This document shows, one piece after another, positions 55,737 through 62,587 of a stretch of DNA of 64,000 bases. The stretch covers positions 372,001 through 436,000 of the forward strand of contig MVIG01000002.1 in NCBI GenBank assembly GCA_002086835.1, given 5' to 3'. The stretch comes from Mycolicibacterium porcinum (lineage in GTDB: Bacteria > Actinomycetota > Actinomycetes > Mycobacteriales > Mycobacteriaceae). A program made the position numbers and the translations under genes. Under the pieces are notes generated by a model. It saw only the letters and a list, made by a program, of their open reading frames with translations, did not search any database and had not been told where the DNA came from. The first letter of the stretch is position 1, and every line of letters starts with the position of its first letter.

Positions 55737-55976
55737 TTACATGCCTCTCGTTCCGTGGACGCCTAGCACTGTCGGCCGCGGTGAGCACAATTGTCAATGA
55801 GGGTTCTCAATGAATGGACGGTCAGGGCGGCGGGAGCCGAGTCCCGGCAAGATCAAGCGCACGCACGACGGTGAAGAGTGCCATCCGCCAAGGTGCGCTG
55901 AAGTATTGTGCTGCAACCACTTTCGAGGCCTGCCGGCCGGGGCGTCCGTCAGGAAGCTGGCCGCGCCAGTGTCGGC

Positions 55977-56225
55977 CTACCAGCTGGTGCCGTCGAGCCC
56001 CGGAATCACGCACCGGCCGTCAGCGGCCACCCGCCCGATCAGCATGCCGTCATACCCCGTGCACGCCGAGTTGAGCGGCTCGCAGGTGTTGACGGACGTG
56101 ATGACCTTGCCGGGGCCGCAGGCGGAGCCGGGTGCCGGCGGGTCGGCATTGGCGACGGCGGTGCTCAAGCCCAGCGTCAGTGTTGCTGCGGCAGTGACGA
56201 CAAGTAAGCGGGTCGCGTTGTACAT
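55977..56225 (-). CDS. small exported Cys-containing protein
   Basis: An 82-residue protein with a clear signal peptide (ATRLLVVTAAATLTLGL, cleavage after VANA) leaving a ~57-residue mature peptide with four Cys, probably in two disulfides. The ATG at 56225 is preferred to a start ten codons upstream. No family is recognised. It lies just outside the left end of the tRNA islet. Confidence 0.75.
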   Translation of the reverse strand: MYNATRLLVVTAAATLTLGLSTAVANADPPAPGSACGPGKVITSVNTCEPLNSACTGYDGMLIGRVAADGRCVIPGLDGTSW

Positions 56226-56383
56226 GATCGGTACCTCCGGGCGATGCCCCGACAAGTGCCAATGCTACTCGCGTGGTCCATGTCGTTGCCGATGATCGCG
56301 CGCCAGATTTGCGTGCGTGAGGCGGAAGTGTCAATTGCCCGCGTTTGGGGTCCAGGCGCGCAGTTGCGTCGCTGACCTGCATG

Positions 56384-56434
56384 TGTGGAGCCGATGACGG
56401 GAATCGAACCCGCGTATTCAGCTTGGGAAGCTGA
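56384..56434. repeat. left attachment repeat (attL-like), tRNA-Gly 3' fragment
   Basis: 51 bases identical to 61137-61187, covering the CCA end, T-arm and part of the anticodon arm of tRNA-Gly. Identity stops abruptly at both sides. Confidence 0.92.
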
Positions 56435-56778
56435 CGTAAGGCGATTTCGAATGTCCTGGTGCGTCTCAAACCTGGGCTGCCAGCCCAGCCCATCGTCGTG
56501 CATCGTTGCACGCCGCAGGCCGGGATTTCGCCAGCGACTGGCGCGCGTTATCGATTCGCTTGCCGCGCTCGCTTAAGGTAGTAGTCCCGGGCAGTTCACT
56601 TGTCCGCTGCGCGAAGCTGGTGCCGTAGCTCATTCCGCCCACTATGGCACGGAGCTTTGGGGCGGTGATTACCCGCCTGTCAGCAATCGTTTACGAAGGC
56701 TGATCTTGAGCGTATTCGGCATTAACGTAGCGTGAAGCCCGACCAGCCGGGGAGTGGACCAACTGTTGATCCGCGGAG
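56435..56778. other. non-coding stretch between attL and the RT gene end
   Basis: No convincing gene. It contains a short hairpin (CTGGGCT-GCC-AGCCCAG, 56472-56488) and otherwise no clear structure. It lies downstream of the RT stop. Confidence 0.5.
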
Positions 56779-58311
56779 CTAGTCGTAGGTGTACAGCTTA
56801 TTCGCACCCGGAACCACGCCGAAACCGTAAGTCTGAGTCGCATTTCGAACGACGCGGGCAATACGCATGAAGCTGGGTATACGCAGGTCGATCGTCTGGC
56901 CTGTTGACAACGATACTGTGGTGAATCCGATCAGTTCTCGCCGGGATAAGCCATGCGGATTCGGCGTGGGTAAACCTTGCTCGACGAGGAGGCTGCGGCG
57001 GCGGCGCAGGGCAAGCCAGATCTCGTTCGAAAGCCAGCCGTCAAGAGCAGATAGTTGCTGTCCGTCGTCAACCAGTGGAAAGAAGGCCATCACGCCTTCG
57101 AATGACATGAACGGAATTGATCCCTGCATGAATCTGTAAATCTGATTTTCGCTCAGCGGTCCATATATATAACGACGTACCTGAGAGATGCACGTAATGT
57201 AATCGCGATCGTTTCGCGTGATGCGATCAGCCGACTGTCTGCCTGCCATGATTTCGCGCAACAGATTATTATAGATCAGATTGCCAATCTTTGTTTTTAT
57301 TCGATCGACAGCTGAATCACGCATCCGCACTGTCCCTAACCCAACGGAATGTCCCAGGTAGTCAACCGACGTAGTGCTCGCAAGTTCGGTTCTGGCCTCT
57401 CCATGTCTGACCAAAAGCCGTATTCCAGGACTCTTGGCTGCATTGATCGGCGTGCCTATCTGTTCGGCCGCCTCGTGTAGTAACTCGGCAGCCATGCAAA
57501 TTCGGCTGTAATCGGGACTCCAGATCAATGTATCGTCCGCATACCGCACAAACCCGACACCTAATCGCTCAAGGGCTCGGTCGAGCTTGGTTGCGGCTAT
57601 GTTGGCCAAAAAGAGGCTCACTGAAGTGCCTTGAGCCAAGCCGACGTGGCCTGAATACTGGAGTTGACCGGTACCCGATCTTACCAAGTGTGGAATCGGC
57701 GTGTCGAGAAAGGCATGAATGAGTTGATCCTCAAGAGGTGTCTTTACGATGCCTAGGTCATTCATGGAATCGTATAGATACTGGTGATTTATTCGGTCGA
57801 AGTATTTCGTGAAATCATACTCAGCAATGAATATTCGGTGCTTGTCTTTCAGCTCGTGTTGCGCATATGACAGGGCATCGTGAGGAGACAATCCGGATCG
57901 GTAGGCGAACGCTCGTGCACTCATGCGGGACAGATTTTTTCGCGAGAGCGACTGCAGCAATCTGTAGGATATGACCTCGTCGGCGATCTGAAATGACGTT
58001 ACAGTCCGGGTTCCTCCGCCAGGCTTTTCCAGCTCAAATTGTGCGGGCGCAAAAGGGGCATACGTGCCACGCTTTAAGCTAGCACTGATCGAGTGTGCAA
58101 TCTTAGCTGCTCGGGCGCGGACACGGTACGGGTCGAACCCTGGAGAAATATCCCAAAGAGGCGGGCGTTGCACGTGCAATCGCGCGGGCTCGCCCACGCA
58201 ACGGCGCGCGCGGCGAACATTCTCGTCGAACACCCACTTGGCATAACGCTCGTGGTTACGTATGCGCCGTGTGGCCGCCGACTCGATCGCCTCTTGCAGC
58301 TTCCACCACAC
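56779..58311 (-). CDS. reverse transcriptase, probable phage-defence or unknown-group type
   Basis: A 510-residue RNA-directed DNA polymerase. RT blocks are in order: EKPGGGTRTVTSFQIADEV (95-113), first catalytic Asp in EYDFTKYFDRI (164-174), GLAQGTSVSLFLANI (224-238), VRYADD (255-260) and VDYLGH near 318. The C-terminal ~180 residues have no maturase, HNH or primase motif that I recognise. GTG at 58311 follows AGGGAG with 5-base spacing. It is more AT-rich than its surroundings. The upstream non-coding leader is long and structured, as in RT systems that use an associated RNA. Class within the RT tree cannot be set by eye. Confidence 0.9.
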   Translation of the reverse strand: MWWKLQEAIESAATRRIRNHERYAKWVFDENVRRARRCVGEPARLHVQRPPLWDISPGFDPYRVRARAAKIAHSISASLKRGTYAPFAPAQFELEKPGGGTRTVTSFQIADEVISYRLLQSLSRKNLSRMSARAFAYRSGLSPHDALSYAQHELKDKHRIFIAEYDFTKYFDRINHQYLYDSMNDLGIVKTPLEDQLIHAFLDTPIPHLVRSGTGQLQYSGHVGLAQGTSVSLFLANIAATKLDRALERLGVGFVRYADDTLIWSPDYSRICMAAELLHEAAEQIGTPINAAKSPGIRLLVRHGEARTELASTTSVDYLGHSVGLGTVRMRDSAVDRIKTKIGNLIYNNLLREIMAGRQSADRITRNDRDYITCISQVRRYIYGPLSENQIYRFMQGSIPFMSFEGVMAFFPLVDDGQQLSALDGWLSNEIWLALRRRRSLLVEQGLPTPNPHGLSRRELIGFTTVSLSTGQTIDLRIPSFMRIARVVRNATQTYGFGVVPGANKLYTYD

Positions 58312-58898
58312 GGCAACTCCCTAAGAAAGAGGTTAGGGGCCAGGCGGACCGCCCAGCCCCTAACCGGCTAACTCGCGTCAAGGAAATTATGCAATTACGC
58401 TGCCTCGGACTTTCACCCCAGGCGTCGAGTAGGCGGGCGGTGATCAACCGGTGCCCCGACCTGCTATTGACGCGAAGCCTAGCTCCTCTTGGAGCCCAGA
58501 TTGACCATACCAATAACCGACGGCACGATTGGGATGAGACAACCCTACGCGGTGAACGACCTCGACGACGGACCTGCAAACAAGTTATACGGTGCCGGCG
58601 GACTAGTGGCAGGCAGACGATCCGGCATGTGAGGACGTTTCAGCCACGCGCCGCCTCGATCCATAGCCCGACGTCGCTTTGCCGACACATGACTCGGCGA
58701 CCTCGTCAACTTTAAGGAATCGCTCATTGCCTGGTGGGCTGGCTGTGACGCCGGCACGGTTCTCGATACGAGCGACTCAGCGATTGAAAGCAGCGCGTAC
58801 GTGCTCGCGAGTTTCCATGGAGTGGTGTGTTCGGGTTCCATCCGGTTCGCTGCCTCGACGGCCCTCCCCTACCAGATCACGCGCTCGCTTTCATTGTG
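58312..58898 (-). ncRNA. structured leader / candidate RT-associated non-coding RNA
   Basis: 587 bases without a credible gene, upstream of the RT on its strand. Visible structure: a perfect nested hairpin at 58331-58365 (GGTTAGGGGC with GCCCCTAACC, inner GGCGG with CCGCC) 20 bases from the start codon; CGCGTCAA (58374-58381) complementary to 58467-58474; and GCTCC-TCTT-GGAGC (58482-58495). The part nearest the RT is thus foldable over about 165 bases. Whether it is template, primer or only an mRNA leader is unknown. Confidence 0.5.
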
Positions 58899-59110
58899 TT
58901 AGGCCGCGACAACATGTGGTCGATGGTTCGGAGGCAAACCGTCAATCTCCGCCAGCCAGATTTCCGCGTCTGCGGCCGATAGAAGTCTCTGCCGCCGAGC
59001 AGCTTGACACTCGTCGGGCCGCGGGTTCGATTCCAGCGCAAGTAGCTCAGGGTGTGTACGGACACCTCGACGAGGTTGGCGAGTTTGGCTGGTGCTAGGA
59101 GGTCTTTGTC
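58899..59110 (-). pseudogene. excisionase (AlpA/HTH_17-like) remnant
   Basis: The frame starting near 59110 encodes LLAPAKLANLVEVSVHTL..W..TRGPTSVKLLGGRDFY, a typical MerR-like excisionase HTH. Near 58980 the match moves to another frame (SAADAEIWLAEIDGLP), which would complete the usual YRRADVEAWLAE end. The shift makes the gene broken. Confidence 0.7.
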
Positions 59111-59189
59111 GAGCGGTTCCCGGGCAGTCGCGGTCCACGAATTTAGTGCAGTGCAGGATTTTCCGTTATACGGAACGGGAGACCGGGCC

Positions 59190-59402
59190 GCGCTGCTGTC
59201 GCCGGAGTTGAAGTTCCATTCGGTCCGCACACGTACGCCAGCTTGTGCGGAGAGGCAGGGATTCCGGTGGCAGGTGGCGGAGTTCATGGGCCATGCGAAC
59301 CCCACCACCGAACGCATCTACCCCCACGTCTACAAAAAGGGCGACCACGACGACGTCATGAGCCAGCTCGGAGCGACGCCGCGCAGTCAGTTGAGCGGAT
59401 AA
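59190..59402 (+). pseudogene. tyrosine integrase C-terminal remnant
   Basis: Only the C-terminal catalytic part remains, spread over two frames: KFHSV, then PHTYASLCGEAGIPV, then WQVAEFMGHANPTTERIYPHVYKKGDHDDVM. These are the HxxR/H and MGH...Y regions of phage-type tyrosine recombinases with at least two frameshifts; the N-terminus is lost. It explains the att repeats and shows the islet is fixed. Confidence 0.82.
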
Positions 59403-59441
59403 CGTTGTGCCGCTCAGACGTTAGTCCGGCTTAACAAGCTA

Positions 59442-60005
59442 CTAATTGCGTGCCTGTCGAGCCTGTGATTGCGGCTGGGCTGGCTTGATGTGAATGTCGT
59501 CTGGGACATCGATAGCGTCTTGGCGCAGACCTATGAATTGGATCAGGGTTCCCATCAGCGGCAACAGGCTCGCGATAGCCCAGGACGAGAAGAATCCGAC
59601 AATCGCGCCTAACGGTGCGACCAACCATGTTGGGGCCGTGCGCGGAACCGTCGAGAGCACAAGAAGGCCGAGTAGGGAAAAGACGCCGATCGCCGTCGTG
59701 AACAGAAACGGGGTCATGTAGGTCACAGGATCTCTGCCTATCGCCCGAAGCTTGCGCAGAAACGCTTGGTCCAGAAAGGCGGTTTGGATTGCTGTTGCTG
59801 CGATGACCGCACCAATCACTGCACCGACGACTCCGGCGGTGACACTAACCGCCCCTACAAGTAGGTCGGGTCGGGTGAGGCCGAGAACCAGCCCACCTAT
59901 CAGCCCGGCGACGCCGATGACGAGATCGATCCCTAGGACATCGCCGAAATCCATCGCCTTGACCGCCGCCCAAAGGTGACGCGTCACTCCGCTATCGTCT
60001 GACAT
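59442..60005 (-). CDS. islet membrane protein of unknown function
   Basis: A 187-residue protein with four or five hydrophobic segments (about 24-44, 49-72, 95-120, 126-150) and a polar C-terminal tail. ATG at 60005 follows GGGAGG at 7 bases. It lies 61 bases downstream of the larger cytosolic gene on the same strand. No family recognised. A soluble protein plus small multi-pass protein recalls the architecture of membrane-acting phage-exclusion pairs; this is only an analogy. Confidence 0.75.
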   Translation of the reverse strand: MSDDSGVTRHLWAAVKAMDFGDVLGIDLVIGVAGLIGGLVLGLTRPDLLVGAVSVTAGVVGAVIGAVIAATAIQTAFLDQAFLRKLRAIGRDPVTYMTPFLFTTAIGVFSLLGLLVLSTVPRTAPTWLVAPLGAIVGFFSSWAIASLLPLMGTLIQFIGLRQDAIDVPDDIHIKPAQPQSQARQARN

Positions 60006-60066
60006 CTCACCACCTCCCGTCGAACATTCGTTCGTACGGTACCGCTACGGGCCGACAAATCCCCTT

Positions 60067-60972
60067 TCAGCTCAGTTCCGGCTGCTCGGGCTTGCCTCTG
60101 CTCGCAACATACTCGCGCAACGCTGCAAGAACCACATCTATGCCCTGCTGTAGGTTGTTGCCGAAGTCGGACACCTCGACCGAGTCGATTGTCTCTCGTG
60201 AGTTGAATGTCGCCTTCCCGACGCCGTGGAGGCCACGCGACACCATGACGACGTCGAGATCGCCGGTTTCGGTGCCTACCAGCTTCTCCTGGAACTCGTC
60301 GGAGTCGACATCGAGGGTCTTTCGCGGCCGTGCCGCAAACTCCTCAGTTTTGCGGTTCGCGCCGAGCGCCCGCATCTCCCGTCGATCGTCGTCGAGGTTC
60401 TTCCCAGGGTTTGTGAACTTGATCGTTCGTCTGAGGTTATGCACCAGTGGGTTCCGTCGTATCCATTCTCGGATCACTCCAGTTGAAGTGACGAGGTCCA
60501 CCTCCCATTCCGTAGGCATGAGCCCCAGCTTCGCTACAGCGTGGTTGAGCACGTTCTCAAGCCCTACCCGGAAGGAACTATCTTGTAAGCGTGCAGTGGT
60601 CGCGAAAGCGACCCAGCGTTCTCCATCGCGTAGGTCGACCGCGAATGGCACGATCGTTTGTTCGTTGGCGGCGTCGGAATCCTCCACCTGTGCCTTCATC
60701 CACGAGAAGGCTTCGTCGTCAAACGAGACTTGTTGCTGCCGCTCGGAAAAACCGAGAACGCCAGTCAGGAAGTCACCTTCGGCCGTTACTGTCATGTCGC
60801 CCGCAATCCACCTCCTCCCCGGGCGGTTCGCGGTGCTCTCCTGTGTGAATGTCGTGAGGTGGCTATCGGCGAGGACTTTCATGTCTTCTGCAAAGCTGCG
60901 TTCCTCAAACGTTTCCTGGTTCGGATTGCGGCGATTGATTCGCCCGAACACAACCCGCCGACCGCGCGCCAT
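60067..60972 (-). CDS. islet soluble protein of unknown function
   Basis: A 301-residue protein without signal peptide or membrane helix. It opens RRVVFGRINRRNPNQETFEERSF and has a strand-rich first half; the middle contains REWIRRNPLVHNLRRTIKFTNPG, and the C-terminus is helical. I do not recognise the family. ATG at 60972 has a G-rich site upstream; GTG at 60987 is an alternative. It probably forms an operon with the membrane protein that follows and is carried as cargo of the tRNA islet. Confidence 0.78.
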   Translation of the reverse strand: MARGRRVVFGRINRRNPNQETFEERSFAEDMKVLADSHLTTFTQESTANRPGRRWIAGDMTVTAEGDFLTGVLGFSERQQQVSFDDEAFSWMKAQVEDSDAANEQTIVPFAVDLRDGERWVAFATTARLQDSSFRVGLENVLNHAVAKLGLMPTEWEVDLVTSTGVIREWIRRNPLVHNLRRTIKFTNPGKNLDDDRREMRALGANRKTEEFAARPRKTLDVDSDEFQEKLVGTETGDLDVVMVSRGLHGVGKATFNSRETIDSVEVSDFGNNLQQGIDVVLAALREYVASRGKPEQPELS

Positions 60973-61136
60973 CAACTGGCCCCCCACTCTGTAAACCTCA
61001 CGCTGTTCGGAGCGGACGATATCCGAGAGGCAGCAAGAGTTGCGGGAAATTGGTACGCGTTAGCGGTACAAGCGCGGTACAGGATTGCCGCGCAAACGCC
61101 TTGGGGGCCTGAAAACCCCGCTCTGCCTGCTAGAAC

Positions 61137-61187
61137 TGTGGAGCCGATGACGGGAATCGAACCCGCGTATTCAGCTTGGGAAGCTGA
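61137..61187. repeat. right attachment repeat (attR-like) within tRNA-Gly
   Basis: 51 bases identical to the left copy at 56384-56434; here they are the functional 3' part of the tRNA gene. Confidence 0.92.
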
Positions 61188-61212
61188 TGTTCTGCCATTG
61201 AACTACATCGGC
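61139..61212 (-). tRNA. tRNA-Gly (anticodon CCC)
   Basis: Cloverleaf on the minus strand: acceptor GCCGATG pairs with CATCGGC, D-arm GTTCAATGGCAGAAC, anticodon arm TCAGC-TTCCCAA-GCTGA (anticodon CCC), T-arm CGGGTTCGATTCCCG, discriminator T and an encoded CCA. It is intact and is the integration target of the islet to its left. Confidence 0.96.
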
Positions 61213-61573
61213 ATGGTGCTGACGAAGGATAGCAACCCAGCCCCGGCTGTGGGGAAGGCGGGCAGACATCTTCTCGGTGAGTCTAAGAAATTGACGCCGA
61301 CGGATCCGACGGACGATGGCCCGCGATTGGCGAAGGGTTTCGGTGAGGCCGACGGGCGGCTGCCCAGTGCGGACCCGGAGCCTAGGCAGGTGCGGCGAAA
61401 CAGATGACCCCAGAACGTGATTGCCGTTCCCACGGCACCCTGAGAATCGGGTAAAAGCACGGGCCGTCATTCTCAGACGCTCTCTCTACCGTTGGTTCTC
61501 GTGGGCTCCATCCGGCGCTGAATGGAGCGAACAGGCCCGCAGCCCGGGCCGAATCAATCGAGGGGTTGCACCC
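61213..61573. other. intergenic region after tRNA-Gly
   Basis: 361 bp with no convincing gene. It holds an inverted repeat CTGAGAAT (61440-61447) / ATTCTCAG (61469-61476) that may belong to the promoter of the next gene, and presumably the tRNA promoter near 61215-61260. Confidence 0.5.
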
Positions 61574-62587
61574 ATGGATGTTGTTATCGGAATTGCCATG
61601 ACCTCGCGCGACGCCCGGCTTCTCCTGGTGGAGGGCACTCACGGCGACGGCGCGGTCATCGACCACGGGTCGCTCGACGCGGACACCCGCCCCGCCGTCG
61701 AGCACCGTGGTTTCCGCGAGCGCGTCGTCAACGCGGTGATCGACACCCGCGACACCGCCCCGGCCAACGGCTACACCGTCACGCGCGTGGCGCTGACCTG
61801 GACCGACGCGGTGGCCGCTGAGGCCAATTTGGTCCTGGACGCCCTCACTGAGCAGGGCATCACCAACGTCGGAGTGGTCTCCACGGCCGACGCGCTGGAA
61901 GCCGCCGCCGAATACACCGTCCAGATCGCCGACTGCGACTCGATCGCGTTGTGCGTGGTGGAACCCGAAGCGACTCTGCTCGCCGTGGTCGGCGCCGAGG
62001 GCGAGAACGGGAAGCGTCGAGTACGCAGCCGCCTACTGGACGGGCCTGACGAGGCCACGGCAGTGCTGGCGCTGTGCGGCGTCTGCGACAGCTTCCCCGA
62101 ACGCGTCGACGCGATCGCCATCGCGGGATCCTCCCCGGACGTGGAAAGTCTTGTCGAAGAGGTGAATTCGGTGATGCCGCGCCCCGTCGTCCTCGGTGAC
62201 GACGCCGCCCTGCTGCTGGCGCGAGGTGCGCTGCTTTCCAGTGCCGGCATTCGCCACGATGCCGTGCCGACACCCGGGCGCGACCCGCTGATGCGCACCC
62301 TGACCACCGTCATGGCTACGGCGGTGCTGATTCTGGCGGGGTCGGTGTTTCTGGCGCTCACGGTGCAAGGCAGGAATGGCCCCACGCCGCCGCAGACATC
62401 GACCTCGGCTGAGCACACCGCGCCGGTGTCGCCCGCCGGGCCGCTGCTGCCGCCGCCGGCCGGCACCGGCCAGCAGGTCCACACCGTGGCGTGCAGGGTG
62501 CTGCCATTGTGGGCGCATCAGAAACCCGTGACCGGGCCGTGCGCCGACACCCCCTTGCCGCCGTTGCCGCAGGTGGTCCGGCGCTGA
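61574..62587 (+). CDS. mycobacterial one-TM protein (DUF7159-like)
   Basis: A 337-residue protein. Residues 1-230 form an actin/sugar-kinase-like alpha/beta domain that opens [20 protein letters not shown], a pattern I associate with a mycobacterial family (DUF7159-like). One transmembrane helix (about 242-264) leads to a short Pro-rich exterior with two Cys. ATG at 61574 is chosen. Function is unknown. It precedes dcd by 17 bases. Confidence 0.75.

Follow-up and report, generated by a model that had tools for sequence, protein, structure and literature searches.

What does a reverse transcriptase (RT) do in a short islet at a mycobacterial tRNA gene, and which DNA would it make? The locus that raises this question lies in a stretch of 64,000 nt from Mycolicibacterium porcinum (contig MVIG01000002.1, positions 372,001 to 436,000; hereafter the window), where an earlier note, made from the letters of the DNA, had described an islet at 56384-61187 with an RT and a presumed role in phage defence. 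We hold, with moderate confidence, that this is a degraded tRNA-Gly islet whose main cargo is a DRT9-clade RT with its non-coding RNA, that this pair would act by abortive infection and use a three-uridine (U3) template to make mainly polydeoxyadenylate (poly-dA), and that a neighboring two-gene unit is independent of it. The clade of the RT, the RNA, its -10 element, the template sequence and the insertion were established directly. Handles beginning with G and L denote the compared genomes and loci, respectively.

The reverse transcriptase and its upstream RNA

The features of the RT-RNA pair are as follows:
56779..58311, minus strand: DRT9/UG28-clade RT of 510 aa (open frame without internal stop; profile, PDB and tree evidence)
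58329..58500, minus strand: modelled part of a DRT9-type non-coding RNA (fold z -4.48; covariance model, 136.5 bits; covariation across 16 loci)
58331..58365, minus strand: hairpin of 16 pairs at the 3' end of the RNA, then TCTTTCTT, terminator-like
58504..58509, minus strand: -10 element TATGGT, presumed RNA promoter (TANNNT in 16/16 loci)
58381..58401, minus strand: template loop AGCGTAATTGCATAATTTCCT, with the three-U tract at 58384-58386
58385..58397, minus strand: A-B-A' pattern in the template loop, TAATT (58393-58397), GCA (58390-58392) and TAATT (58385-58389)

The RT frame, read as intact in the earlier note, has no internal stop, and its sequence places the product in DRT9 (UG28), a clade of anti-phage RTs. 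It matches the PADLOC Drt9 model with 591.1 bits over residues 1-506, whereas the next RT model reaches 105.7 bits and the UG17/DRT10 model in the same scan only 77.8 bits, which places the RT outside the UG17 clade. Among solved structures, the closest relative (E = 6e-88) is a single sequence deposited as six PDB entries; PMC12483538 and PMC12489045 assign four of these (9VKU, 9VMA, 9NLX, and 9NLV) to DRT9. In a tree of 30 RT rows, the window RT groups with that of Mycobacterium sp. IS-1264 (L018; 81% identity; support 99/99) within the actinobacterial DRT9s, and the RT of G082 (locus L010; 66% identity) joins this grouping with support of 100/100. The tree leaves out L028 and L031 (near L029 by score) and the partial L037, and shows L017 on a very long branch; 14 of the 43 rows of the RT search (L047-L060; E 6e-23 or weaker) were dropped as other RTs. 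The earlier proposal of a phage-defence RT is supported by the family to which the RT is assigned.

The catalytic YADD motif (residues 257-260) is invariant in the RT alignment. The C terminus, LYTYD, carries a Y-x-Y motif (Y507 and Y509 of 510), the counterparts of which in E. coli DRT9 (Y496 and Y498 of 499) are required for the synthesis of complementary DNA (cDNA) (PMC12489045). Between the window and L018, the proportions of nonsynonymous and synonymous differences (pN and pS) are 0.121 and 0.789, the latter being saturated; the RT has thus diverged between these genomes under purifying selection. The earlier suggestion that the cargo is kept by selection holds to this extent; no second copy of the islet was found in which selection within it could be read.

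Directly upstream of the RT gene, matching the published DRT9 layout, lies a structured RNA (58329-58500, minus strand), which the earlier note had missed and which is the second half of the system. Its 5' end probably lies near 58500 and its 3' tail probably extends to ~58323, giving ~175 nt for the whole RNA. The fold beats those of all 200 of 200 shuffled sequences. A covariance model was built from nine loci including the window, so that the window's own score is not independent; with E values of at most 0.0002, it matches 8 of the 24 loci outside its build (L028 and L029 among the 8 carry one identical RNA sequence) and misses the remaining 16, 12 of which are outside Actinomycetota. In the alignment of 16 loci, 87.6% of cells pair, both partners vary in 32 of the 39 pairs (21.6 on average in shuffles, with 0 of 500 reaching 32), and the covariation amounts to 0.533 vs. 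0.188 when shuffled and at most 0.157 when slid, these counts being biased upward because the alignment was fitted to the structure.

The presumed promoter is conserved as well. TANNNT begins 4-16 nt ahead of the start of the RNA model in all 16 loci, and at 8-10 nt in 15 of them, compared with a mean of 1.9 and a maximum of 8 loci in shuffled controls; the range of distances was picked after the sequences had been viewed. The TATGGT site at 58504-58509 was not listed by a general sigma-70 scan.

The template loop and its three-uridine tract

In the published DRT9 RNA, the template is a tract of four uridines (U4) at U123-U126, which is called universally conserved and templates poly-dA, and the deletion of one U from it abolished defence in the tested DRT9 (PMC12483538); in the E. 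coli DRT9 the tract is numbered U124-U127 (PMC12489045). The window loop reads AGCGUAAUUGCAUAAUUUCCU, and no more than three consecutive U occur anywhere in the modelled RNA, the longest run being that in AAUUUC. Since the RNA lacks U4, poly-dA is not to be assumed, and the system is filed as a DRT9-clade RT-RNA system rather than as a proven poly-dA DRT9, for which protein-primed poly-dA synthesis, a hexamer and abortive infection would also be expected. The number of uridines needed for DRT9 templating was left open by Tang et al. (PMC12483538).

Among the 16 loops, U4 is present in 10, and at most U3 in five (the window, L018, L029, L030, and L032). The RNA of G082 (L010:11431-11598) combines a canonical U4 block with a second GCAUAAUUUC (AAUUUC) block in one loop and may represent a transitional form linking the canonical loop to that of the window. 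For loci outside the covariance model the tract was read by eye, giving U4 in L035, L036, L038, L041, L045, L061 and, apparently, L017, and U5 in L033, L034, L039, L040, and L046; L042 was unassignable, and L037 and L044 were left out.

The U3 loci occupy three separate places in the RT tree (the window with L018; L030 with L032; L029), so that a simple interpretation of the tree gives U3 more than one origin. In one of these places the loop has stayed unchanged while the RT diverged: all 21 of its 21 positions are identical between the window and L018, the remaining RNA differing at 15.5% (chance of no change in the loop, 0.03). Conservation is equally strict for the canonical loops of L019, L021, and L023 and a little looser in L020, L022, and L043. 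The U3 loop is compatible with an enzyme that has worked over a long time, because it remained fixed while the RTs diverged. The template loop is what is new in the window RNA, and the U3 loci make both the minimum template of DRT9 and a possible change of product testable through the sequence of the cDNA.

In the predicted fold of the window RNA, AUAAUUUCC is unpaired at 0.97 or more, and this predicted single-stranded state favors slippage on U3 and a poly-dA product. Ahead of it, GCGUAAUUGC forms a small predicted hairpin, with two pairs at 0.89 and a third at 0.67. A similar hairpin is clear in the predicted folds of L018 (0.85) and L024 (0.76) and partial in that of L020 (0.42). As a general feature of DRT9 RNAs this pre-template hairpin was dropped, since outside the window clade it is clear only in L024 and partial in L020.

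The islet, its boundaries and its other cargo

The remaining features of the islet are listed below:
56384..56434, no strand: left copy of the attachment site, 51 bp from the 3' part of tRNA-Gly (exact repeat; G021, where the site is empty, has one copy)
61137..61187, no strand: right attachment-site copy, almost wholly within the intact tRNA gene (exact repeat)
61139..61212, minus strand: intact tRNA-Gly (CCC) (ARAGORN; Rfam tRNA, 73.7 bits)
59193..59375, plus strand: tyrosine integrase remnant, ~64 aa near the C terminus (similarity to the G004 integrase)
58899..59138, minus strand: possible excisionase remnant (weak match)
60067..60987, minus strand: first gene of the two-gene unit, 306 aa, no known family (open frame)
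59442..60005, minus strand: second gene of the two-gene unit, 187 aa, with four helices of membrane length modelled at low confidence (predicted local distance difference test, pLDDT, 62)

The tRNA-derived repeats at the two ends are perfect, as had been reported: 56384-56434 and 61137-61187 agree over 51 bp with zero mismatches at a spacing of 4753 bp, and they enclose the 4.75-kb islet. A perfect repeat of this length from the 3' part of a tRNA is far beyond chance. The empty site that the earlier note suggested looking for was found in G021, the best flank match among 40 other genomes sampled, where the left flank (85% DNA identity) and the right flank (82-83%) join at one tRNA copy; the 4.75 kb is therefore an insertion. 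The locus thus has the tRNA-derived repeats, the integrase (as a remnant only) and the empty site in a relative that characterize tRNA-targeted genomic islets.

Of the two decayed mobility genes described earlier, the integrase is confirmed. Its remnant shares 53% identity with residues 400-463 of the 480-aa integrase of an island that occupies this tRNA gene in G004, to which it is also closest at the DNA level (74% identity across 189 bp), and in both the islet and this island the cargo lies between integrase and tRNA. The excisionase remnant is plausible only, its best match having 45% identity across 42 aa (E = 0.006).

The tRNA-Gly(CCC)-dcd site is a mycobacterial integration hot spot, occupied in G020, G004, G018, G002, G017, and G010 (L133, L135, L136, L138, L144, and L146). 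At least one further partial tRNA copy was present at 5 of the 15 sites fetched (L133, L135, L136, L138, and L144) and none at the other 10, with mostly ~5-8 kb viewed on that side; the copy in G010 sits ~30 kb off. Nine proteins of the hot-spot cargo were scanned against defence families, with strong matches for a cytosine DNA methylase of G002 and a SoFic-type Fic protein of G018, a weak one for a G004 protein (mad8, 2e-5), and no match for the others.

The two-gene unit is intact, in agreement with the earlier reading: neither frame is interrupted, and G797, another actinobacterium, has an orthologous pair of adjacent genes (L148:6137-7568; identity of 37-38% for the 306-aa and 42% for the 187-aa protein). 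A DNA methyltransferase gene resembling PD-Lambda-5_B lies close to the G797 pair. A search for the 306-aa protein gave no further genome among 248 of the genus and one (G797) among 316 of the phylum. Neither protein had a match at 1e-5 in phages and plasmids; with the threshold raised up to 10, the 306-aa protein gave 16 phage records (best E about 2), while viral contigs gave none and the best PDB match had E = 0.095. The predicted fold of the 306-aa protein (mean pLDDT 39) was not used, and that of the 187-aa protein was used for the helix pattern alone; the unit may combine a soluble sensor with a membrane effector. A RexB match (E = 0.015) was rejected together with the idea of a RexAB-like unit after hhalign gave probabilities of 0.1% and 0.4% for two-sequence profiles, and a YLATT match of the G797 homologue (E = 0.067) was set aside as weak.

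Membrane genes of the SLATT_5 type are present in five DRT9 loci (L024, L027, L030, L032, and L017); the gene precedes the RNA in four of them and, in the Thioclava plasmid, follows the RT. In L024, L030, L032, and L017, the last 12 residues of the RT retain a single tyrosine.

Rival readings and comparison with known systems

In the account that we favor, the RNA would be transcribed from its own promoter, fold into the DRT9 scaffold and offer a short single-stranded template next to the RT active site. The RT would prime on its own C-terminal tyrosines and copy the same few template bases repeatedly, with AAUUUC most likely still yielding mainly poly-dA through slippage; the repetitive DNA would build up upon phage infection and halt the cell. 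The two-gene unit would be a second cargo. We infer the assembly, priming, product, and defence of the window system in this sequence of steps, and several observations weigh against it. The U4 tract, called universal for DRT9 and necessary in the tested system, is absent from the window RNA. When folded singly, the RNAs of several relatives, L021 and L022 among them, are predicted to have a paired U tract, so that such folds are weak evidence and serve as a guide only. No SLATT domain was found by Pfam among the five islet frames, SLATT being merely occasional in DRT9. Finally, the islet may be a relic, because its integrase is broken.

The missing U4 also bears on two readings in which poly-dA is not made. 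The product may have switched, with the A-B-A' template (UAAUU-GCA-UAAUU) being used as in DRT10 or telomerase RNA and giving an 8-nt tandem repeat (TGCAATTA)n, which we regard as unlikely. The A-B-A' pattern and the pre-template stem-loop required by DRT10 (PMC12632851) can both be read in the window RNA, and the tandem unit GCGUAAUU|GCAUAAUU, identical at 7 of 8 positions, is unusual for the composition of the loop (plain-shuffle p of 0.006 and 0.015 in two runs of 2000, for the loop shared by the window and L018; 0 of 2000 dinucleotide shuffles in each run). The G082 loop has its own 10-nt near-duplicate (p 0.04-0.06), and the other 13 loops are lower on this measure. However, the test was devised after the pattern had been seen, only 13 of the 16 loops are different, related loops are not independent, and the window and L018 amount to one case. 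Furthermore, the longest exact repeat in the window loop, 5 nt, is less unusual by itself (p 0.06-0.08 plain, 0.02 dinucleotide) and is equalled in L026, a U4 locus, the corresponding p for G082 being 0.5-0.6; the first A of the pattern lies within or beside the small predicted hairpin; and the RT is of the DRT9 rather than the UG17/DRT10 type. If true, this reading would mean an independent switch from homopolymer to repeat inside DRT9, with telomerase-like DNA made in a mycobacterial clade. Alternatively, the RNA template may have decayed and the system be dead, its RT frame being open merely through recency. The broken integrase would agree with this, as would the loss of U4, given that the loss of one U was fatal in the tested DRT9 (PMC12483538), but the loop has stayed the same in L018 despite the divergence of the RTs, and two other lineages with open RT frames also carry U3 tracts; we judge such decay to be distinctly improbable.

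A single system made up of the RT and the two-gene unit is not supported. For a multi-part system of RT, RNA, and gene pair, with the membrane protein as effector (cf. the possible role of SLATT elsewhere), one could cite the position of all components within 4.3 kb and the SLATT_5 genes ahead of the RNA in four related loci and behind the RT in the Thioclava plasmid. Yet the G797 pair has no match to the window RT within the 14 kb read, and neither protein has a homologue in the examined flanks of 32 other DRT9 loci (from <1 kb to ~9 kb per side), so that the unit is separate from the RT system and, on these comparisons of sequence, a rare module of its own. Moreover, the 187-aa protein has no match in the Pfam SLATT families or to a four-SLATT-gene model (which is too narrow, also missing the Thioclava SLATT gene), and the integrase remnant separates the RT-RNA pair from the two genes; a single system is therefore very hard to credit. 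As to a group II intron maturase or a retron outside DRT defence, the former named in the earlier note as an outcome that would speak against defence, generic RVT_1 and maturase matches were indeed obtained. Nonetheless, the RT scores 109 bits with the group II maturase model of NCBIfam (cut-off 300) vs. 591 bits with Drt9, the RT tree contradicts this origin, and an Rfam scan of 55800-61800 gave no intron or retron RNA, which leaves it a negligible probability.

A DRT9 system of the U3 kind described above, together with the RNA, the -10 element, and a mobile carrier, is now placed in Mycobacterium. DRT9 is rare there: the same four genomes carry it among 248 and among 307 genomes of the genus, and it was counted in 4 of 397 genomes of the order and 1 of 396 of the phylum (all counts include the window's genome); two more RT matches near 1e-31 among the 248 were taken as other RTs. 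The window RT gave 10 weak partial matches in phages, 842 plasmid records with coverage of at least 80% in two of them (Hymenobacter and Thioclava), and 40 loci in viral contigs, one of which (L061) is at DRT9 strength; the RNA pattern had 0 matches in viral contigs. A full-text search, with homologue supplements and most subscription papers outside its scope, found no report of DRT9 in mycobacteria, and mycobacterial members may be included in published supplementary tables of homologues. The DRT9 locus of G082 (L010 7520-16540) lies between a PDC-S06-type ATPase gene and HerA-like and PD-Lambda-5_B-like genes and resembles a defence island.

The nearest DRT9 relative, L018 (NZ_MBES01000002.1), shares the template loop and most of the RT sequence with the window. 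Unlike the window, it is located near tRNA-Ala, and neither a flanking tRNA repeat nor the two-gene unit was found in the flanks examined; the DRT9 module was therefore not simply inherited at the tRNA-Gly site. The two-gene unit shares with lambda RexA-RexB the idea of a soluble and a multi-pass membrane protein, whereas no sequence relation was found.

SenDRT9 and E. coli DRT9 (PMC12483538 and PMC12489045) resemble the window system in the RT clade, the upstream structured RNA, the YADD motif, the C-terminal Y-x-Y, and the placement of the template, which lies in a loop that follows a stem-loop. The window system differs from them in the three-U tract of AAUUUC in place of U4 and in its carrier, a mycobacterial tRNA islet. 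DRT10 (UG17; PMC12632851) likewise has a template loop that follows a stem-loop, and its A-B-A' repeat has a possible counterpart in the loop of the window RNA. In contrast to DRT10, which requires a SLATT partner and primes on a serine, the window system has an RT outside UG17, no SLATT match, and the C-terminal tyrosines of the DRT9 type.

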